Shown piece after piece: positions 3,533 through 16,018 of a stretch of 19,246 nucleotides of DNA. Source of the DNA: an uncultured Eubacterium sp. (GTDB taxonomy: Bacteria > Bacillota > Clostridia > Peptostreptococcales > Anaerovoracaceae); contig UQNP01000021.1 in NCBI GenBank assembly GCA_900542385.1, forward strand, positions 1 to 19,246, written 5' to 3'. The notes beneath the pieces are model-generated. The model was not told the DNA's origin and did no database searches. It was given only the letters and a program-made list of their open reading frames with translations. Position 1 is the stretch's first letter, and the number at the start of each line of letters is the position of its first letter. The position numbers were made by a program, and so were the translations under genes.

Positions 3533-4999
3533 TTATGTTTCAAACTCCCTGAAAACATCCTTTACGGTATCTATTCTTCCGATACTTTCGGCCTGCTCAC
3601 TGCAAAACATAAGCCCTCCGTCGTAATCCCCCTCTACACTGCGTTTCACCGCTTCAAATATATCATAGTCCTCGCACTTGCCTTCGGCTACTCTGTCGGT
3701 AAAGGAGTTCTTCATCGCTCTAACAGATGTTTTCATCGGACTTCTGATTATTGTAACATCATTTCTTTCACAGTTCAAATACCGTTTCTTGTATTCATCC
3801 GGTGCATCGCACTCCTCTGTCAAAACGAATCTGGTTCCCATGAGGAAACCGTCGGCTCCGTACTTATAGGCCGTCTCTGCGTCTTCCTTTGTAAAAATAC
3901 CGCCGCCTACTATCAGAGGGCAGTTTTCAAACTTGGAAAGCTCAGATTTTATATCTGCTATAATTCTATGCCATTCCTGCTCCGCTCTGTCGAGCTGGTC
4001 CTCTCTGAAGCCGAGGAGCCCTGCTGCGAAAGGTCCTTGCAGGATAAATCCATCCGGCATACGATTGTATTTCTGCGACCAGGTCCTTATTATGGCAGAA
4101 GCTGCCCGTTTTGAAGAGACTGTAGGTACAAGAGCCACTTTCTTGTCGCCGCAGTACTTCGGAAGATCTCTCGGTATGCTTCCGCTCGTGACGATCACCT
4201 GCGCTCCGCTTTTTACTGCTGCATCGACATATGCAGGAGCGTTTGGATTGCTCCACATCACAGTGACTCCTATAAGTCCGCCGCCACCAGCTTCATCGCG
4301 CCGCCTTTTGGCTTCGCTGACCGCTTCACGCACTCCTTCTATGTTTGCAGTCAGCCTGTCTTTCTCATAATCAGGACGTCTGTATCCTATATCCGTCGTT
4401 CCTATAAGACCAAGACCGCCTTCGGCAGCAACAGATGACGCCAGTCCGGCGCCGGCTATACAAATACTCATCCCTGCCTGCACTATAGGGACAGGCAGTT
4501 CATGAGGTCCGAGTTTTATAGGCTTCAGCTCGAATGGTGATGTTTTGACGTACACCATACTGCTTTTTGCCATAAAATACTGGTTTATATTGTCTATAGC
4601 CGATACAAAATACTGCAGCTTGTCGAAAGGTACCTGCGAAACAGCGCCTTTAACGATCCTCTCCATAAACTGCTCATACTCACGAGCGGCCTGCTCTCCC
4701 TTGTCGGTGAGCGCAACCTTTACGATGCGCCTGTCCTTATCATCGCGAAGCCGCTCAACATAACCTTTTTTCACAAGCTTATTAACCGTCGACGTCAGAG
4801 TACTCACTTTTATCTCAAGAATATTCGCCACATGAGTCATGGTTTTCGGTCGCCCAATCCCTATTGCCGTTACGGCATGTATCTCTGTCCGCGAAAGGTC
4901 TGCAAAATCGGAATTCTTCAGATTTTCATCCTGAAGCTTGTGAATTATTTTAAAGAGACCGCTCATTGTTTCGTATATTTTCTTTACATTTTTATCCAA
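3533..4999 (-). CDS. FabT-like MarR repressor fused to a nitronate monooxygenase/FabK-like flavoprotein domain
   Basis: One uninterrupted 488-residue frame. Residues 1-145 are a MarR protein: recognition region THVANILEIKVSTLTSTVNK (55-74) and a wing with the family's D-x-R signature (DDKDRR, 86-91). Residues about 158-488 are an FMN-binding TIM barrel of the nitronate monooxygenase/FabK family: PIVQAGM (171-177), VGGGI (364-368) and MGTRF (387-391). The family motif around the catalytic histidine (usually GPxAGGHxGF) reads GPFAAGLLGF at 322-331, so the histidine is leucine 328. The FabK encoded upstream keeps its histidine. The start is the ATG with AGGAG seven bases before it. The gene lies 24 bases after fabZ and 17 before addB. 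Inference: a one-component repressor of the fab operon with an inactive-enzyme sensor domain for flavin, redox state or acyl groups. Residual catalysis cannot be excluded. Confidence 0.88.
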   Translation of the reverse strand: MDKNVKKIYETMSGLFKIIHKLQDENLKNSDFADLSRTEIHAVTAIGIGRPKTMTHVANILEIKVSTLTSTVNKLVKKGYVERLRDDKDRRIVKVALTDKGEQAAREYEQFMERIVKGAVSQVPFDKLQYFVSAIDNINQYFMAKSSMVYVKTSPFELKPIKLGPHELPVPIVQAGMSICIAGAGLASSVAAEGGLGLIGTTDIGYRRPDYEKDRLTANIEGVREAVSEAKRRRDEAGGGGLIGVTVMWSNPNAPAYVDAAVKSGAQVIVTSGSIPRDLPKYCGDKKVALVPTVSSKRAASAIIRTWSQKYNRMPDGFILQGPFAAGLLGFREDQLDRAEQEWHRIIADIKSELSKFENCPLIVGGGIFTKEDAETAYKYGADGFLMGTRFVLTEECDAPDEYKKRYLNCERNDVTIIRSPMKTSVRAMKNSFTDRVAEGKCEDYDIFEAVKRSVEGDYDGGLMFCSEQAESIGRIDTVKDVFREFET

Positions 5000-5023
5000 T
5001 GATTATCTCCTGACCTTTTTATT

Positions 5024-5449
5024 TTAACTAAACGCGAACATTATCTCACATTTGCACGCCAGCTCATCACCTACATAAGCTTCAGCAAGACCTGTACCCG
5101 CATTTTTCCTAAGTCTGTCAAGGGTCACTTTGAGAGTGAGAACATCTCCCGGCGTCACCTGTTTTTTGAATTTAGCATTTTTTATAGCTCCGAAAACAGC
5201 GAGTTTACCTTTGTTCTCAGGCATGGAAAGCACTGCTATAGCTCCTGCCTGAGCAAGCGATTCAACTATCAGCACTCCAGGCATGATAGGTCTTCCCGGA
5301 AAATGTCCCTGGAAGTAATATTCATCTTCCCTGACATATTTTCTGGCAACGATCGATTCTCCCACATTGAGTTCCTCTACTTCATCTACAAGCAGAAACG
5401 GCTCTCTATGCGGTATTATTTCTTTTATCTGTTCTTTGTTAAGAAGCAT
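5024..5449 (-). CDS. fabZ: 3-hydroxyacyl-ACP dehydratase FabZ
   Basis: FabZ removes water from 3-hydroxyacyl-ACP to give trans-2-enoyl-ACP in the cytosolic elongation cycle. The 141-residue length is normal. The hot-dog-fold active site is complete: H49 in GHFPGRPIMPGVL (48-60) and E63 in VESLAQ. The N-terminal IIPHREPFLLVDEV (11-24) is also typical. The ATG has AAAGGAAG upstream. It sits between fabF (39-base gap) and the MarR fusion gene. In streptococcal fab clusters accB precedes fabZ; here it does not. Confidence 0.96.
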   Translation of the reverse strand: MLLNKEQIKEIIPHREPFLLVDEVEELNVGESIVARKYVREDEYYFQGHFPGRPIMPGVLIVESLAQAGAIAVLSMPENKGKLAVFGAIKNAKFKKQVTPGDVLTLKVTLDRLRKNAGTGLAEAYVGDELACKCEIMFAFS

Positions 5450-5488
5450 GCTTATCTTCCTTTCTCTACGACATTTTCATCTTTACTC

Positions 5489-6721
5489 TTATTCCGCAAA
5501 TTTTTTCATTATCAGCGTTCCGTTATGTCCTCCAAATCCCAGGGAATTGGAAAGAACATAGTTTATATTGGCTTCTCTTCCTTCGTTTGGAACATAGTCA
5601 AGAGTAAGTTCCGGATCAGGCTTTTTAAGACCTATTGTAGGAGGTATAAATCCTTCAACTATAGTCTTGGCGCATATTACAGCCTCAAGACCTCCTGCTG
5701 CGCCGAGAAGATGTCCCGTCATGCTCTTGGTTGAGCTTACAGGCACCTTTGTATCTTCTCCGAAAATTTTCTTTATTGCAAGTGTTTCAAAAGCATCGTT
5801 GTAAGGAGTTCCCGTTCCGTGAGCATTTATATAATCTATATCCTCCGGAGTGATGCCTGCATCATCTATAGCCATCTTTATAGCTTTTGCTGCGCCTTCT
5901 CCATCAGGTGCCGGCGAAGTTATATGGTATGCATCGGATGTTGCTCCGTATCCTACTATCTCTCCGTATATCTTTGCACCTCTTGCTTTTGCATGCTCAA
6001 GCTCTTCAAGTACCAGGAAGCCTGCACCTTCTCCAAGTATGAAGCCGTTTCTTTCAACATCGAACGGTATGGAAGCTCTGTCCGGATCTTTTGTAGGATT
6101 CATCGCCGTCATATTTGAAAAACCGGAAAAGCATACAGGTGAAAGCACTGATTCTGCTCCGCCTGCCAGTATTACATCATTGTAGCCATGCTTTATATTT
6201 CTATAAGCTTCACCAACGTTGTGAGTACCGGCAGCACAGGCCGATACTATACCGAAGCTCGGTCCCTGAGCTTTGAATTCCATTGAAATGTTTCCAGCTA
6301 TCGCATTAGGCATTACCATAGGTATGAGAAGGGCTGACGCTCTTCCCGGCGTATTTTTCTTTACACACTTGGTCACTTCATGCTCCATAGTTGCAATACC
6401 GCCTATACCTGTACCTCCGTATATTCCGAATCTATCCGGATCCACATTTTCTCCGCTGACGATACCGCTGTCGCTTATCGCTTCACGCGCTGCAGTAAGC
6501 GCATACTGATCTGCTATATCAAGTCTCTTTGCAGCTCTCTTATCTCCAAAGTCAAAGTCTTTTACTTCCGCTGCCAGAGTGACTTTATGACCTTCAAGGT
6601 CAAATCTCGTTATTTCCGCAATACCGTGTCTTCCATTTTTTATGGAATCCCACATTGCATCAACGTTGTTCCCTACCGGCGATACGACGCCAAGTCCTGT
6701 AACTACTACTCTCTTTTCCAT
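5489..6721 (-). CDS. fabF: 3-oxoacyl-ACP synthase II FabF
   Basis: This condensing enzyme elongates acyl-ACP with malonyl-ACP. The 410-residue length is standard. The Cys-His-His triad is visible: C162 in SACAAG, H301 in NAHGTGTPYND and H337 in KSMTGHLLGAAG, with K332 beside it. The opening KRVVVTGLGVVSPVGN (3-18) is diagnostic. It follows fabG by 24 bases in the same operon. Because FabZ is the only dehydratase seen and no FabA or FabM lies here, the window does not show how unsaturated chains would be made. Confidence 0.97.
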   Translation of the reverse strand: MEKRVVVTGLGVVSPVGNNVDAMWDSIKNGRHGIAEITRFDLEGHKVTLAAEVKDFDFGDKRAAKRLDIADQYALTAAREAISDSGIVSGENVDPDRFGIYGGTGIGGIATMEHEVTKCVKKNTPGRASALLIPMVMPNAIAGNISMEFKAQGPSFGIVSACAAGTHNVGEAYRNIKHGYNDVILAGGAESVLSPVCFSGFSNMTAMNPTKDPDRASIPFDVERNGFILGEGAGFLVLEELEHAKARGAKIYGEIVGYGATSDAYHITSPAPDGEGAAKAIKMAIDDAGITPEDIDYINAHGTGTPYNDAFETLAIKKIFGEDTKVPVSSTKSMTGHLLGAAGGLEAVICAKTIVEGFIPPTIGLKKPDPELTLDYVPNEGREANINYVLSNSLGFGGHNGTLIMKKFAE

Positions 6722-6745: not shown

Positions 6746-7489
6746 TTACATTATTATTCCGCCGTCTACGGCTATTATCTGTCCTGTAATATACGAACTC
6801 AGATCCGATGCTAAGAACAGCGCTGCGTTTGCTATATCCTGAGGCTGTCCCATCCTCTGCATGCTTATATTTTTAGCAGCTCCTGCTTTCTGCTCTTCTG
6901 TAAGTACAGCCGTCATATCTGTTTCAACAAATCCCGGAGCTATACCATTGACTCTTATGCCCCTTCTTCCAAGTTCCTTTGCTGCCGACTTAGTCATTCC
7001 CACAAGTCCTGCCTTCGATGCACTGTAGTTTACCTGCGCAGGATTTCCTTTAAGTCCTGATACAGATGACATACTGATTATGGAGCCGCTTCTCTGCTTT
7101 ATCATGAGCGCTGATATCTCTTTAGTCATATAAAAAGATCCATTCAGATTGACATCTATAACTCTTGAAAAATCCTCAGGACTCATTTTTATCATGAGTT
7201 TGTCGTTGGTTATTCCTGCGTTGTTTACAAGAATGTCTACTTTCTTGTCAAATTCATCTTTTATTATCTGCGCTACATTCACAGCTGTCTGCGGATCTGT
7301 TATATCTCCGTTTACCATTCTGACTCTCGTGCCGAATTCTTTGAGTTCCGCTTCAGTCTGATCAGCGGCCTCTTTACTGCTGATATCGCAGATTATAACG
7401 TTAGCACCGTTTTTACAGAATGTCTCAGCTATGCATTTACCTATGCCTCTTACACCGCCTGTAATAACTGCTGTTTTTCCTTTTAACAT
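6746..7489 (-). CDS. fabG: 3-oxoacyl-ACP reductase FabG
   Basis: NADPH-dependent short-chain dehydrogenase that reduces 3-oxoacyl-ACP. Cofactor motif TGGVRGIG lies at 10-17, NNAG at 89-92, the catalytic serine near 141-142 and YSASK at 155-159, so the active site is complete. I start it at the ATG ending at 7489 (247 residues), because AGG lies seven bases before it; a GTG six bases further upstream (7495) has no usable ribosome site. The stop is followed 24 bases later by fabF. The fabD-fabG-fabF order is the usual one. Confidence 0.96.
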   Translation of the reverse strand: MLKGKTAVITGGVRGIGKCIAETFCKNGANVIICDISSKEAADQTEAELKEFGTRVRMVNGDITDPQTAVNVAQIIKDEFDKKVDILVNNAGITNDKLMIKMSPEDFSRVIDVNLNGSFYMTKEISALMIKQRSGSIISMSSVSGLKGNPAQVNYSASKAGLVGMTKSAAKELGRRGIRVNGIAPGFVETDMTAVLTEEQKAGAAKNISMQRMGQPQDIANAALFLASDLSSYITGQIIAVDGGIIM

Positions 7490-7506
7490 ATCCACACCTG
7501 CTTTCT

Positions 7507-8496
7507 TTACTCTCCGTCAGCCAGTTCTTTTATCCTGGATACGGTTTCACTCAAAGATTCAACGTTTTCCACGTTGAGAGCTTCAATACCTTTGCATGTT
7601 TTTTTTGTAAGGCCGGTAAGGGTAGTTCCCGGTCCGATCTCCACCATAGCCTTAACGCCGTCAGCTTCAAATTTTCTTATGATCTCTTCCCAGTATACCG
7701 GGCTCATCGCCTGTTTTGACATTATATCCACAAGGTATGCCTGCAGATCTCCTCCATCGTAGTCTTTCATGTAATCATCCGCAGTCAAGTCTGCATATAC
7801 AGTTTTTTCAGGCTTTTTTAATTTTACTTCCATGAGAACATCCTTGAGTTTTTCAGCTGCCGGAACCATCATCGGACTGTGAAAAGCAGTGCTGACACTC
7901 AAAGGGATAGCTTTTATCTTGTTTTCTGCCGCCACCTTGCAGAATCTCTCTATGGCTTCCTTATCTCCCGCTACTACTGTCTGCTTAGGAGAGTTGAAGT
8001 TTACTCCTTCAAGGATACCGTCTTCTCTTGCCTGTTCAACGGCTTCCAGGATCTTTTCTCTCTTGCCGAGGCCCGCTACCATCGCACCTTTGTTTTCACC
8101 GTTTTCATCAAGGCCGGCCTCCTTCATGAGGACACCTCTCTTTGCCACGATATCCACACCTTCGCCGATATCCTCTATAACACCTGCTGCTGTAAGAGCC
8201 GAATATTCGCCAAGACTGAATCCGGCAACAGCGCTTATTTCCACTTTTTCATCAAGGCCGTTCTTTTTGAGCTCAGATAAAAAAGCTTCATATGCAGCCA
8301 TGCTTACTGTATACACCGTCGGCTGAGTGACATGAGTCTGCTTGAGCGTCTCCTCGTCTCCTTCAAAGCACCATTCCTTTACCTGTTCTCCAGCTGTATC
8401 AAAAACTTTCCTGGCTTCAGGATAAGAATCATAAAGATCCTTTCCCATTCCGCTATACTGCGCTCCCTGCCCTGCAAATACTATTCCTATCTTCAT
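7507..8496 (-). CDS. fabD: Malonyl-CoA:ACP transacylase FabD
   Basis: FabD loads malonyl groups from CoA onto ACP. GQGAQ lies at 9-13, the nucleophile S94 in GFSLGEYS (92-99), and the partner H206 in STAFHSP. The chosen ATG (ending at 8496) follows AAGGAGGAGAG and gives the standard MKIGIVFAGQGAQ opening and 329 residues, slightly long for the family. An upstream in-frame ATG at 8529 would add an arginine-rich stretch without a ribosome site. The first 44 bases overlap the end of fabK in another frame, which suggests translational coupling. Confidence 0.96.
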   Translation of the reverse strand: MKIGIVFAGQGAQYSGMGKDLYDSYPEARKVFDTAGEQVKEWCFEGDEETLKQTHVTQPTVYTVSMAAYEAFLSELKKNGLDEKVEISAVAGFSLGEYSALTAAGVIEDIGEGVDIVAKRGVLMKEAGLDENGENKGAMVAGLGKREKILEAVEQAREDGILEGVNFNSPKQTVVAGDKEAIERFCKVAAENKIKAIPLSVSTAFHSPMMVPAAEKLKDVLMEVKLKKPEKTVYADLTADDYMKDYDGGDLQAYLVDIMSKQAMSPVYWEEIIRKFEADGVKAMVEIGPGTTLTGLTKKTCKGIEALNVENVESLSETVSRIKELADGE

Positions 8497-9406
8497 AAAT
8501 CTCTCTCTCCTCCTTGAACATCTCTTCAATTATCTCCGCAGCAGACTGCTCTTTATTTACCAGTCCTGCGATCTGCCCGGACATTATATTACCGTTGTCG
8601 GCATCTCCGTCCCTTACGGCTGCCGCCAGCGTTCCTGTACAAAGTTCGTTTATCTCTTCTTCAGGCGCATTCTGCTTTTCCAGCGACAATATCTTTCTTG
8701 CAAGCTTATTTTTTATTATTCTTACAGGATGGCCTGTGCTTCTTCCTGTAGCAACTGTCGATGAGTCCTTCGCTTTGATTATGGCATCTTTATAGCCCTG
8801 AGCTACTATGCATTCATCAGCAACAAGGAATCTCGTTCCCACCTGTACGCCTTTCGCTCCAAGCATATAAGCCGCCGCTATACCTCTTCCGTCAGCGATA
8901 CCTCCTGCTGCTATAACAGGTATTTTAAGCGCATCTACCATCTGAGGCACAAGCGCCATCGTAGTCGTCTCTCCAATATGTCCTCCTGCTTCTGTTCCTT
9001 CAGCCACTACAGCATCGGCTCCTGCTCTTTCTACACGGATAGCCAAGGTTACATTGGCCACTACGGGTATGACCTTTATGCCGCACTCCTTCAGCTTTGA
9101 TATATATTTCCCCGGATTTCCCGCACCTGTAGTTACTACCGGCACCTTTTCCTCGCACACTACATCCATCAGCTCATCCACGTTATCCGCCAGCAGCATT
9201 ATATTGACTCCGAAAGGATTATCCGTAAGTTCGCGGGTTTTTCTGATCTGGTCTCTCAGCCAATCGGCGCTCTGACCTCCTGCGGCTATTATTCCAAGAC
9301 CTCCTCCGTTGCTTACGGCAGAAGCCAGATTGTATTCTGCGATCCTCGCCATAGCTCCCTGGATTATAGGGTACTTCGTACCCAAGATTTCACAAACGTT
9401 TACCAT
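8453..9406 (-). CDS. fabK: FMN-dependent enoyl-ACP reductase FabK
   Basis: FabK performs the last reduction of the elongation cycle in many Firmicutes in place of FabI. The 317-residue protein shows YPIIQGAMA (12-20), GGGLG and the catalytic loop EGTEAGGHIG (136-145) with H143, plus GGIADGRG and VGTRF for FMN phosphate binding. The ATG at 9406 is preferred because AGGAGG lies five bases before it; an in-frame codon at 9424 has no such signal. Its last 15 codons overlap the start of fabD. It provides the internal comparison showing what the fused flavoprotein domain at 3533-4999 lacks. Confidence 0.95.
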   Translation of the reverse strand: MVNVCEILGTKYPIIQGAMARIAEYNLASAVSNGGGLGIIAAGGQSADWLRDQIRKTRELTDNPFGVNIMLLADNVDELMDVVCEEKVPVVTTGAGNPGKYISKLKECGIKVIPVVANVTLAIRVERAGADAVVAEGTEAGGHIGETTTMALVPQMVDALKIPVIAAGGIADGRGIAAAYMLGAKGVQVGTRFLVADECIVAQGYKDAIIKAKDSSTVATGRSTGHPVRIIKNKLARKILSLEKQNAPEEEINELCTGTLAAAVRDGDADNGNIMSGQIAGLVNKEQSAAEIIEEMFKEEREIYEDRNSICRAGSAV

Positions 9407-9449
9407 ACATACCTCCTGATTCAACTGCTAACCTCTGTTTACTATCTGT

Positions 9450-10436
9450 TTACCACTCTATTATAGCTGATGCGGCGCAGAGTCCGCCGCCAAATCCTAC
9501 CAACGCTACTATATCGCCTTTCTTAAGGTTGCCTGTTTCCTTCAGATCGAAAAGCGCCATAGGCACTGTCGCCGATGAAACGTTGCCGCTTTTCTCTATG
9601 CTTATCTGGAATTTGTCGAGAGGCTGCTTTATTTTCTGAGCTATCGCCTGTATTATCCTCCCGTTGGCCTGATGAAGCACAAACCAATCTACATCATCAT
9701 AGGTCATTTTCGCCTTATCAAGTGCTCCCTTGAGCACTTCCTCCACAGCTCCGACAGCAAATTTGAAAACGACTCTGCCTTTCATCTTAAGAGGCTCCGG
9801 CGTCAGATCATCCTCCCAGAAAGGAGAATTTATATAATTTGCTTTACATGTTATCGCTTCTTTTTCATCATCGTAATTTTTAACATAGGTAGACAATATA
9901 CCCCGCCCTTCTGAAGCTTTCTCGAGAACTGCCGCTCCCGCTCCGTCTCCAAACAGTATACAGGTCTCCCTGTCTTCCCAGTTGGTTATCCTTGTAAGTC
10001 TCTCACTTCCTATCACGAGAGCCCTGCCGGTTCCTTCCGCATGCTCCCCTGCCGGTATGCTCCCGTTCATAAGCGACTCTGCTATCCACATAGCGTAGAT
10101 GAATCCGCTGCACGCTGCGTTGATATCGAATGCTACAGCATTAGTAAGCCCAAGCGCTTTTTTTATCTCTGCAGCCATGCTCGGAGTGATGTGATCCGGA
10201 GTGATCGTGGCAAACACCACAAGACCCACGGATTCCCGCTCTATTCCCTCAAGAGCCTGCTCTGCCGCTCTTGCCGCCATATCCAGGGAGCTTTCGTTAG
10301 TGGCAACGTGTCTTTGGGCTATTCCCGTTCTGTCATATATCCATTCATGACTTGTATCTACATGATTGGATATTTCATCGTTTACCACTATTCTCTCAGG
10401 AAGATATTTCCCAATACCAATTATTTTTACGCTCAT
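9450..10436 (-). CDS. fabH: 3-oxoacyl-ACP synthase III FabH
   Basis: FabH starts fatty acid synthesis by condensing an acyl-CoA primer with malonyl-ACP. The triad is C109 (NAACSG), H255 (VLHQAN) and N285 (GNVSSATVP). The 328-residue length is normal. It is the first gene of the operon; its ATG follows AAAGGG. Just upstream lie a well-formed promoter and a FabT-like operator. In streptococci and many clostridia acpP follows fabH, but here fabK begins only 43 bases later, so no acp gene is present. Confidence 0.97.
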   Translation of the reverse strand: MSVKIIGIGKYLPERIVVNDEISNHVDTSHEWIYDRTGIAQRHVATNESSLDMAARAAEQALEGIERESVGLVVFATITPDHITPSMAAEIKKALGLTNAVAFDINAACSGFIYAMWIAESLMNGSIPAGEHAEGTGRALVIGSERLTRITNWEDRETCILFGDGAGAAVLEKASEGRGILSTYVKNYDDEKEAITCKANYINSPFWEDDLTPEPLKMKGRVVFKFAVGAVEEVLKGALDKAKMTYDDVDWFVLHQANGRIIQAIAQKIKQPLDKFQISIEKSGNVSSATVPMALFDLKETGNLKKGDIVALVGFGGGLCAASAIIEW

Positions 10437-10455: not shown

Positions 10456-10470
10456 ATTTCACTATCAAAT
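10456..10470 (-). promoter_or_regulatory. Possible second, weaker FabT-like site
   Basis: Read on the minus strand this is ATTTGATAGTGAAAT. Its first half copies the operator half-site ATTTGAT; the second half is degenerate. Its centre is 16 bases from that of the perfect palindrome next door, about one and a half helical turns. It could extend repressor binding along the fab leader, or be chance in AT-rich DNA. Confidence 0.35.
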
Positions 10471-10471
10471 A

Positions 10472-10486
10472 CTTTGATTATCAAAG
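10472..10486 (-). promoter_or_regulatory. FabT-like operator at the fab transcription start
   Basis: CTTTGATTATCAAAG is a perfect palindrome with 7-bp arms around a central base. The known streptococcal FabT site is built on TTTGATTATCAAA, which is present exactly (10473-10485). It begins seven bases after the -10 box, so it covers the predicted +1 to +15 and would block initiation when bound. The operon it precedes encodes a MarR protein, the obvious candidate ligand. Confidence 0.85.
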
Positions 10487-10493
10487 CATTTAT

Positions 10494-10522
10494 ATAATAC
10501 AATAAAAAAAGGAAAAAGTCAA
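10494..10522 (-). promoter_or_regulatory. Sigma-A promoter of the fab operon
   Basis: The -35 TTGACT (10517-10522) and -10 TATTAT (10494-10499) are separated by exactly 17 bases. Transcription would start near 10487, about 50 bases before the fabH ATG. The -35 box lies inside the downstream arm and base of the terminator hairpin of the preceding phosphatase gene. Confidence 0.8.
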
Positions 10523-11326: not shown

Positions 11327-11356
11327 AGTATATTTATATAGCTGCACTATCATCAA
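11327..11356 (-). promoter_or_regulatory. Possible promoter for the HAD phosphatase gene
   Basis: TTGATG (11351-11356) and TATACT (11327-11332) are 18 bases apart, with the -35 overlapping the decarboxylase stop region. A transcript from here would start near 11320 and carry the strong terminator hairpin in its leader. Support is limited to the box sequences in an AT-rich stretch. Confidence 0.35.
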
Positions 11357-12510
11357 TATCCGCCGAACATAGACAGCATTACTGCCGCAGCAACTGCCGA
11401 GCCTATTACGCCGGCTACGTTAGGACCCATGGCATGCATCAGCAGGTAGTTTGAAGGATTTGCCTTCTGACCTTCGATCTGCGATACACGAGCTGCCATA
11501 GGAACTGCGGATACACCTGCAGATCCGATGAGAGGATTGATCTTTCCGCCAGCCAATACGTTCATCAGCTTAGCGATAAGAACACCGCCTGCAGTACCTA
11601 CTGCAAAAGCAAGTACTCCGAGCACTACTATCTTAAGAGTAGAAGCTGTAAGGAATGTAGTTCCTGTAGCTGAAGCTCCTACGCATGTTCCCAGCAGTAT
11701 TACCAGTATATTCATGAGAGCATTTCCTGCAGTATCAGCAAGTCTTCCAACTCTTCCGCACTCTTTAAAGAGATTTCCGAGCATCAGCATACCGATAAGA
11801 GGCGCTGCCGATGGAAGCAGAAGTGTTACTACTGTAGTAACTGCGATAGGGAAGAGTATCTTTTCTCTCTGAGATACTACTCTGAGCTGTTCCATCTTGA
11901 TCTCTCTTTCCTTCTTAGTGGTAAGAGCCTTCATGATAGGCGGCTGTATTACAGGTACGAGCGCCATGTATGAGTATGCCGCAACCGCTATAGGTCCGAG
12001 CAGATGATCAGCAAGCTTCGTAGTCAAGTAAATAGCCGTAGGACCGTCGGCTCCGCCGATGATACCTATGGAAGCAGCCTCCTGAGCATTGAATCCGAGG
12101 ATTATAGCTGAGAAGAATGCGAAGAATATACCAAGCTGAGCAGCCGCACCCATTATCAACGACTTAGGATTTGCAATGAGCGGACCGAAGTCGGTCATTG
12201 ATCCTACCCCTAAGAATATAAGGGATGGTATTATAGGTTTGAGCGCATAAAACGCTGTGAATATACCTGCATCCGAAAGCTGAGCTGAGTTCGTTATCTC
12301 AAAGTCGTGAATGAACATGCCTGTCATCGGCAAGTTCGAAAGAAGCATACCGAAAGCTATCGGTACGAGAAGCAGAGGCTCAAATCCTCTTCTGATTGCA
12401 AGATATAAGAAAATAAACGATACTACAATCATTATTCCGTTCTGGTATGTGAAGTTCGCCAGTCCGGTATCGCCCCACAAACTTACAAACGAATCTACTA
12501 TGGCACCCAT
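11353..12510 (-). CDS. Na+-transporting carboxylic-acid decarboxylase, beta subunit (OadB/GcdB/MmdB family)
   Basis: This integral membrane subunit couples decarboxylation of a biotin-bound carboxyl group to Na+ export. The 385-residue protein is hydrophobic throughout, with many membrane helices. The family signatures are present: SMTDFGPLIANP (104-115), with the conserved aspartate D107, and GGADGPTAI (152-160). The start is the ATG at 12510, because AAGGAG lies nine bases before it; the in-frame ATG at 12540 would place that ribosome site inside the gene. No alpha, gamma or biotin-carrier subunit lies nearby, so the substrate (oxaloacetate, glutaconyl-CoA or methylmalonyl-CoA) stays open. 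It has its own promoter and terminator. Confidence 0.93.
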   Translation of the reverse strand: MGAIVDSFVSLWGDTGLANFTYQNGIMIVVSFIFLYLAIRRGFEPLLLVPIAFGMLLSNLPMTGMFIHDFEITNSAQLSDAGIFTAFYALKPIIPSLIFLGVGSMTDFGPLIANPKSLIMGAAAQLGIFFAFFSAIILGFNAQEAASIGIIGGADGPTAIYLTTKLADHLLGPIAVAAYSYMALVPVIQPPIMKALTTKKEREIKMEQLRVVSQREKILFPIAVTTVVTLLLPSAAPLIGMLMLGNLFKECGRVGRLADTAGNALMNILVILLGTCVGASATGTTFLTASTLKIVVLGVLAFAVGTAGGVLIAKLMNVLAGGKINPLIGSAGVSAVPMAARVSQIEGQKANPSNYLLMHAMGPNVAGVIGSAVAAAVMLSMFGGY

Positions 12511-12566
12511 ATTCTGTCTCTCCTTTTCCTTAAATGACATAAAGATGGTAAAACATCATCGTAGGA

Positions 12567-14916: not shown

Positions 14917-16018
14917 CTACTCCTTCTGCTTAAGTTTTTCATTTATAAAGTAATCTATATCTCCATCCATCACTGCATCTACATTGCCGACTTCCGCCCC
15001 GGTCCTGTGGTCTTTGACCATAGTGTATGGATGGAACACATAGGATCTTATCTGGCTTCCCCATGTTATCTGGCTGTAGTCTCCTTTAAGCTCTTCCAGA
15101 TTTTCCTTTTTTTCCTGTTCTTTCAGTTCTATCAGCTTTGACATGAGCAGTTTCATCGCAGTATCTTTGTTCTGATGCTGAGAACGTTCGTTTTGACAAG
15201 TCACCACTATATTGGTCGGTATATGGGTTATCCTTATTGCCGAGTCAGTCTTGTTTACATGCTGACCGCCGGCTCCGCTGGACCTGAAAGTGTCTATCCT
15301 CAAATCATCAGGGTTTATCTTCACATCCACATCTTCATCGATCTCCGGGGTCACGTCAAGGGATGCAAATGATGTATGCCTTCTACCGGACGAGTCGAAA
15401 GGCGATATTCTAACAAGCCTGTGCACGCCCTTTTCATTCTTTAGATATCCGTACGCATTTTCACCTTCTACCAGAAGCGTCGCGCTTTTTATACCGCCCT
15501 CTGTATCGTCCTGCATATCTATCAGCTTCGCCTTATAACCCTTTTTCTCACACCATCTCGTGTACATCCTGAACAGCATTTCCGCCCAGTCCTGAGCATC
15601 TGTCCCTCCGGAGCCTGCGTGCACCGATATTATGGCATTGTTTTTATCGTATTTACCGTTCAGAAGCGTCTTCAGCCTGAGGCTCTCAAGATCATCGGAA
15701 AGTGCTTTGAATTCATCCTCAGCTTCGTTGGCCGTCTCTTCATCTCCATCCTCTTCCGCCATCTCGACGAGCACCTCAAGATCCTCAAGTCTCTGTCCGA
15801 GTTTATCGAGGGTCTGAAGATTGTCTTCTATGGATTTTTTTTCTTTCATGTACTTTTGAGCTGATTCCGCGTCGTCCCAAAATCCCGGTCTGCTTATTTC
15901 TTCTTCTATTTCAGCAAGCCTGGCTTCAAGTTTGTCCCGGTCAAAGGGACTCACCTGCCTCTTTGAGAACTTTCCGCAGCGCAGGCAGAGAGCTCTTTAT
16001 TTGTTCTGTCTGTATCAT
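14917..16018 (-). CDS. prfB: Peptide chain release factor 2, with programmed +1 frameshift
   Basis: RF2 ends translation at UGA and UAA. Translation starts at the ATG at 16018 (AAAGGA eight bases upstream), reads 25 codons and meets an in-frame TGA (15941-15943) after CTT. A +1 shift at CTT-T continues into the main frame, giving 366 residues in all. The RF2 anticodon-like SPF lies at about 205-207 and GGQ at about 250-252, the E. coli GGQ position. Without the shift only a 25-residue peptide is made, so RF2 controls its own synthesis. A simple ORF call would begin at an internal GTG (15954), which I reject. It follows secA across a repeat array and precedes tex by five bases. Confidence 0.96.
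15940..15956 (-). other. prfB +1 programmed frameshift site
   Basis: On the minus strand the site is AGGTGAG, three bases, CTT, TGA, C. The Shine-Dalgarno-like AGGTGAG stands at the same three-base distance from the slippery CTT as in E. coli prfB, and the stop is in the weak TGA-C context. Low RF2 leaves the ribosome paused at TGA long enough to slip onto GAC. All known elements are present. Confidence 0.95.

Follow-up and report, generated by a model that had tools for sequence, protein, structure and literature searches.

A FabT-like repressor fused to a FabX-type barrel at the end of a fab operon: a candidate acyl-ACP receptor derived from a pathway enzyme

FabT of Streptococcus, Enterococcus and Lactococcus is a stand-alone MarR protein of about 145 residues that lacks a barrel and is encoded by the first gene of the fatty acid synthesis (fab) operon; in the Lactobacillales, it represses weakly alone and is strengthened by acyl-acyl carrier protein (acyl-ACP) (PMC13046290, excerpt). 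FapR of Bacillus and Staphylococcus, a fatty acid repressor as well, has a non-enzymatic effector domain with the fold of a fatty acid enzyme (a hot-dog fold) that binds an acyl thioester, and malonyl-CoA or malonyl-ACP relieves its repression (PMC5052256, excerpt). FabX of Helicobacter pylori is a dehydrogenase/isomerase that possesses His182, E175, N99, Q240 and the ligands of a [4Fe-4S] cluster. Here, we describe a gene in a 19,246-nucleotide stretch of DNA from an uncultured Eubacterium sp. (the window; contig UQNP01000021.1) whose 488-residue product fuses a FabT-like head to a FabX-like barrel. Like FabT, the fusion has a MarR head, its gene lies inside the fab operon that it presumably controls, and a palindromic TTTGA-type box marks the fab promoter (exact in the window, present at 19 of 22 loci). 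Unlike FabT, it comes last in the operon and carries a C-terminal domain of 330 residues. It differs from FabX in the added DNA-binding head, the replacement of all four named residues and the missing cluster ligands. FapR offers the best functional parallel, although its effector domain is unrelated and the product is presumed to strengthen, rather than relieve, repression by the fusion. We propose, at a probability of about 0.5, that the protein is an autoregulated fab repressor whose FabX-derived barrel acts as an acyl-ACP receptor.

The coding sequence runs from a TTG start (4999-4997), preceded by GGAG at 5010-5007, to a stop at 3533. A preliminary description of the window had given the limits of this open reading frame (ORF) exactly; the start and stop coordinates place it on the minus strand, and the plus strand contains stops in the same frame over 3533..4999. 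The reading of the product as a MarR head followed by a flavoprotein-type barrel also held, both Pfam domains scoring above cut-off: residues 34-92 match the MarR winged helix-turn-helix (PF12802, 42 bits; cut-off 27), and residues 262-483 form the best nitronate monooxygenase (NMO) stretch (PF03060, 119 bits; gathering cut-off 28). The FabT model NF050133 covers head residues 14-142 at 94 bits, below its cut-off of 200, and the head matches structure 6jbx, a fatty acid biosynthesis transcriptional regulator, at E 2.3e-17. Together with the position inside the fab operon, these matches support the proposed FabT-like nature of the head. By contrast, the suggested kinship of the barrel with FabK, the enoyl-ACP reductase encoded in the same operon, has to be given up. 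FabK likewise belongs to the NMO superfamily, but the barrel scores 73 bits against the FabK model TIGR03151 (cut-off 453.1), and FabX is nearer in both sequence and fold comparisons. The domain is an NMO TIM barrel of the FabX type.

To our protein search, which scored the 7996 candidates with most words in common and listed the best 120 of 204 matches, the fusion appeared as a coherent family: MarR and NMO domains occurred together in 110 of the 111 best-ranked matches (37-100% identity), all except P0101. Genomes and loci carry the labels G and L (G001 being the genome of L001), and P0001 is the window's own protein. Among 197 genomes sampled around G001, 30 held a full-length match, and in 29 of these the fusion is a single ORF; the sole unfused case, G038 (L115), has fabT and fabX as separate neighbours behind fabZ, in that order. 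A consistent split among homologues, which the preliminary description had named in advance as counting against it, is therefore not found. Because both domains share one protein or ORF in nearly all homologues, the junction is no assembly slip, and a frameshift or assembly artefact is ruled out. The neighbourhoods, which that description had proposed to tabulate, place fabZ immediately upstream in 28 of 29 fusion loci. In the exception, L098 (G130), a short run of N lies next to the fusion, which is preceded by an integrase and a transposase-like gene. At L128 (G130:C39), a phage-integrase-family gene, an unassigned gene and a PD-(D/E)XK transposase-family gene, with a short run of N, precede the fusion. 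Fragments in G181, G170 and G087, which seem truncated or disrupted, were excluded from the fusion count. A reference-genome scan gave three fusions (L001-L003) and 77 head-less proteins among the 80 of 579 loci listed. In a class-wide set of 291 genomes, none but G001 had a fusion with an E value of 1e-60 or lower, and a further 55 matched without a head. Searches of open-licence full-text literature for a MarR-NMO fusion regulator found no report, in line with the view that the architecture is undescribed. From its sequence, the FabT-FabX fusion would be a one-component fatty acid repressor with an enzyme-derived effector domain.

To see what remains of the enzyme, we mapped the FabX residues named in PMC8626469 (excerpt) onto the window protein and onto 107 fusions that lack the cluster, leaving P0101 and P0112 out of the conservation and mapping counts. 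In the window protein, N99 is replaced by T246, E175 by Q321, H182 by L328 and Q240 by L386; three of the four cluster cysteines are missing (C300, C304, C308) and the fourth, C320, aligns with D446. Three of four side-chain contacts to flavin mononucleotide (FMN) are changed, and the site is partly retained in G366, G367, G388 and T389, which we take to be the phosphate-holding end. The helix α7, which docks ACP in FabX, remains basic: K152, K159 and R164 correspond to R298, R305 and K310, all conservative changes, and K or R stands at these positions in 107, 101 and 104 of the 107 fusions. In FabX, His182 is catalytic, acyl-ACP no longer binds to the R164A variant, and the acyl chain ends against the [4Fe-4S] cluster, which closes the tunnel (PMC8626469, excerpt). 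Mean identity across the cluster-less fusions is 0.574 for the barrel and 0.582 for the head (3081 pairs, 79 rows); in the 51-member clade of the window, 87 barrel columns are conserved at at least 98%, and pairwise identity of the barrel again equals that of the head. Being conserved equally with the head, the barrel must be under constraint.

The steps between enzyme and fusion can be followed in an alignment of 225 barrel rows (short rows P0078, P0110, P0109 and L053 and duplicates L100 and L111 were dropped), which was gathered by similarity to the window protein and over-represents its clade. The His182 position is histidine in 85 of 87 head-less rows, the other two (P0101, P0112) resembling cut fusions, and in 27 of 138 headed rows. 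The 111 fusions without it carry L (76), Y (20), M (6), I (3), Q (3), T (2) or F (1). All 27 His fusions have the four-cysteine pattern, as do 4 of the 111 others; in the genome sample, His is kept in 15 of 29 fusions and the cluster in 19. A careful tree of 72 rows unites all 46 fusions in one clade (99/98), with the unfused pair of G038 as its sister (100/100), and the fewest changes on it are one for fusion, three for His and one for the cluster. L114, without His but with the cluster, adjoins the cluster-less clade (98/92), and from the branch position of this single row His may have gone before the cluster. A quick tree, which includes the long rows L117 and L118 absent from the careful one, has four His-state changes and places L117, with His and cluster retained, beside L114. 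The Cys-loop columns were kept in both trees. L119-L124 form a separate fusion branch in which FabX T243 is E or D, His is present in 3 of 6 and the cluster cysteines in 6 of 6; the two inspected for the usual box, L142 (G058) and L143 (G107), do not have it.

We see an even chance that a pathway enzyme became the sensor of its own pathway's repressor by steps that survive in living genomes: separate fabT-fabX neighbours (G038); a fused, probably bifunctional repressor and unsaturated fatty acid enzyme (Anaerovorax type); loss of His with the cluster kept (L114, G084); and loss of the cluster (the window clade), whereupon FabX would be a pure acyl-ACP receptor that signals the end product in cis to the attached FabT head.

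Within 10456-10486, the site suggested in the preliminary description, lies the perfect palindrome TTTGATTATCAAA, 36 bp from the fabH start. The window holds no other match even when one mismatch is tolerated (shuffles average 0.10). The palindrome follows a promoter-like match, about where transcription is expected to start. The box (at most one mismatch, within 400 bp) precedes the operon in 18 of 22 fusion loci with the first fab gene visible, 11 times exactly; at a nineteenth, L139, it precedes the acyl-carrier-protein gene that opens the operon. There, an acyl-carrier-protein gene and an AMP-binding enzyme open the fab operon behind the box (oriented 3535-5490, locus minus strand). Across whole genomes, the box pattern is rare; it occurs in 23 of 30, compared with five matches to the backward pattern in all 30, and in nine genomes the only box stands at the fab operon or its fabH. 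The operator and its fab target are well supported. The Streptococcus box is printed as ANTTTGACTGTNAAATT (PMC8406281, excerpt) and shares only the TTTGA and AAA parts with TTTGATTATCAAA. Among 20 regions chosen from the whole-genome box sites, fabH follows the box in two (G026 and, unfused, G038); one box sits close to the end of its contig (G003), five fall within long ORFs and ten show no clear link. Given this outcome, we do not claim a wider regulon. Two long-form boxes mark possible regulon members, a PYC_OADA/HMGL-like carboxyltransferase (G112; L158, about 1997-2009) and an AMP-binding enzyme (G069; L159, about 1975-1987). A FabT-type box also stands within 250 bp upstream of 17 of 76 stand-alone FabX genes, mostly in Clostridia (L005, L009, L011, L015, L018, L021, L025, L029, L033, L034, L037, L041, L046, L050, L073, L075, L076), which suggests that at these loci FabX is an unsaturated fatty acid enzyme under FabT control.

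In the mechanism that we propose from these comparisons, the MarR/FabT-like head would bind TTTGATTATCAAA at the fabH promoter and keep fabHKDGFZ and the fusion gene itself from being transcribed. FabX would have joined the head first as a working enzyme, such that early fusions would both make unsaturated chains and repress, and catalysis would later have been stripped in the window lineage. Fusing an enzyme that binds acyl-ACP to a FabT-type head would have provided the head with a ready receptor. The basic α7 helix would dock ACP, the phosphopantetheine arm and acyl chain would enter the old substrate tunnel, and loss of the [4Fe-4S] domain would open the tunnel end to admit long end-product chains. 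Binding of long-chain acyl-ACP would strengthen DNA binding, and the finished product would repress its own synthesis.

The preliminary description had listed several signals that the protein might sense through its own domain. An acyl or acyl-ACP ligand fits best because the basic residues of the docking helix are retained. FMN redox state is disfavoured because L328 holds the His position, no Fe-S ligand is left and only one of four FMN side-chain contacts is unchanged. A sensor in which bound FMN, through its redox state or through oxygen, sets DNA binding would draw on the cluster-less fusions' G220 (107 of 107), G221 (106 of 107) and T243 as T or S (106 of 107), and on H182F FabX, which retains about 80% of its FMN (PMC8626469, excerpt). 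Yet N99, E175 and Q240 are T, Q and L in the window, only 41 of the 107 fusions retain N99 and 21 retain Q240, and we consider such a sensor improbable. Slightly better placed, while still unlikely, is an enzyme that lost dehydrogenation and kept another acyl-ACP activity such as isomerisation, making the fusion a bifunctional trigger enzyme. The long-term constraint on the barrel agrees with this, and the ten cluster-less genomes of the sample have no stand-alone FabX among the matches listed (to about 88 bits), so that the fusion or something else makes their unsaturated chains, if these are made. Against it, E175 is changed, the cluster is gone, and no single residue has replaced His182, the position being variously L, Y, M, I, Q, T or F. 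For relatives that keep His, such as the Anaerovorax odorimutans fusion P0100, bifunctionality is the likely reading of the sequence. Judged by FabZ count only, an alternative unsaturated fatty acid enzyme shows no pattern, a second FabZ-like gene occurring in G126, G062, G027, G132, G069 and G083 (6 of 30). Cluster-less genomes with a single FabZ and no stand-alone FabX among the matches listed are G192, G001, G112, G088, G082, G008 and G003 (L096, L100, L112, L113, L116, L118, L111).

A more serious competitor, though a doubtful one, is a classical FabT in disguise, with the head sensing acyl-ACP, as it does in streptococci, and the barrel a structural or dimerising appendage. The head does resemble FabT (NF050133, 6jbx), FabT functions without a second domain (PMC13046290, excerpt), and G038 holds an unfused sister; an appendage is hard to square with a barrel conserved as strongly as the head after catalysis was lost, and with three near-invariant basic docking positions where N99 and Q240 are not. 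The same constraint (the 87 columns and the equal identity) makes a decaying relic barrel, carried along by a functional repressor, very improbable, despite the loss of its catalytic residues and cluster.

Several observations weigh against an acyl-ACP receptor barrel on a fab repressor. The FabX docking residues R160, I156 and T130 are not retained (R160T, I156A, T130R), nor is E175, to which the phosphopantetheine arm binds in FabX (PMC8626469, excerpt) and which is Q in the window; acyl-ACP binding may therefore be altered or absent. A basic surface helix suits other roles as well, and acyl-ACP might bind to the head by itself, as it does in streptococci. The head's NF050133 score is under the curated cut-off (94 of 200 bits); that cut-off was reached in none of 30 fusion-group genomes and none of 14 controls, Lactococcus lactis included, and the fusion is the best match in the genome in 29 of the 30. 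The fusion rows of the alignment are closely related to the query and do not count as independent. No recognisable fab genes accompany the fusion in G130, and searches of that genome for FabF and FabZ gave no match. The box was not found at L142 (G058) and L143 (G107), a side branch, or at the cut-short L003, and in three of 12 single-site genomes (G058, G107, G003) the site was not seen at fab genes. The promoter match is weak evidence: TTGACT-17-TATTAT is one of two at 10 of 12, and the scan found 16 matches where shuffles gave 11.9.

The operon reads fabH, fabK, fabD, fabG, fabF, fabZ, fusion (Table 1), and an addB-type nuclease gene comes after it. NCBIfam equivalog cut-offs are passed by fabK, fabF, fabG and fabZ, and fabH passes a subfamily cut-off. 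Upstream of the operon, a gene for a TIGR01109 decarboxylase beta subunit is accompanied by a Tex-like gene (11353-12540, minus strand), and relatives including L001 and L126 share this order. The sequence CTTTGAC (15940-15946, minus strand), with which the release factor 2 gene starts, resembles what we take to be the usual programmed +1 frameshift site.

Table 1. Features of the fusion gene, its predicted operator and the fab operon in the window (CDS, coding sequence; pLDDT, confidence score of the structure model)
Feature	Position	Strand	Remarks
FabT-FabX-like fusion CDS	3533..4999	-	488 residues, TTG start, last fab operon gene
MarR/FabT-like DNA-binding head, residues 1-145	4565..4999	-	PF12802/PF01047, NF050133 and 6jbx match
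Linker, residues 146-156	4532..4564	-	adjoins least confident part of structure model (pLDDT 59 in block 141-150)
FabX-like TIM barrel, residues 157-488	3536..4531	-	sequence and fold likeness, residue mapping
L328, place of FabX catalytic His182	4016..4018	-	residue mapping; H182 role from PMC8626469, excerpt
Missing [4Fe-4S] loop, approximate place residues 440-445	3665..3682	-	C300, C304, C308 missing; C320 aligns with D446
Residues 297-313, FabX α7 equivalent, putative ACP-docking helix (R298, R305, K310)	4061..4111	-	residue mapping
Predicted FabT-type operator TTTGATTATCAAA	10473..10485	.	perfect palindrome, before fabH
Promoter-like match upstream of fabH, TTGACT-17-TATTAT	10494..10522	-	10 of 12; operator just behind
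fabH	9450..10436	-	NCBIfam subfamily model
fabK	8453..9424	-	TIGR03151, 463 bits, passes
fabD	7507..8529	-	best model TIGR00128, 230 bits, under cut-off 261
fabG	6746..7495	-	NCBIfam model
fabF	5489..6721	-	NCBIfam model
fabZ	5024..5449	-	NCBIfam model; end 24 bp ahead of fusion

The way in which one-component regulators acquire ligand domains usually has to be guessed from the end states; in this case, intermediates stand in extant genomes. An enzyme and a repressor of one operon were fused once, and the enzyme lost its catalytic residues while its carrier-binding face was partly kept. If our proposal is true, relatives that keep His would combine enzymatic activity with repression of their own operon, and the window clade would have found a new route of sensing the fatty acid end product, parallel to FapR with another enzyme as its source.
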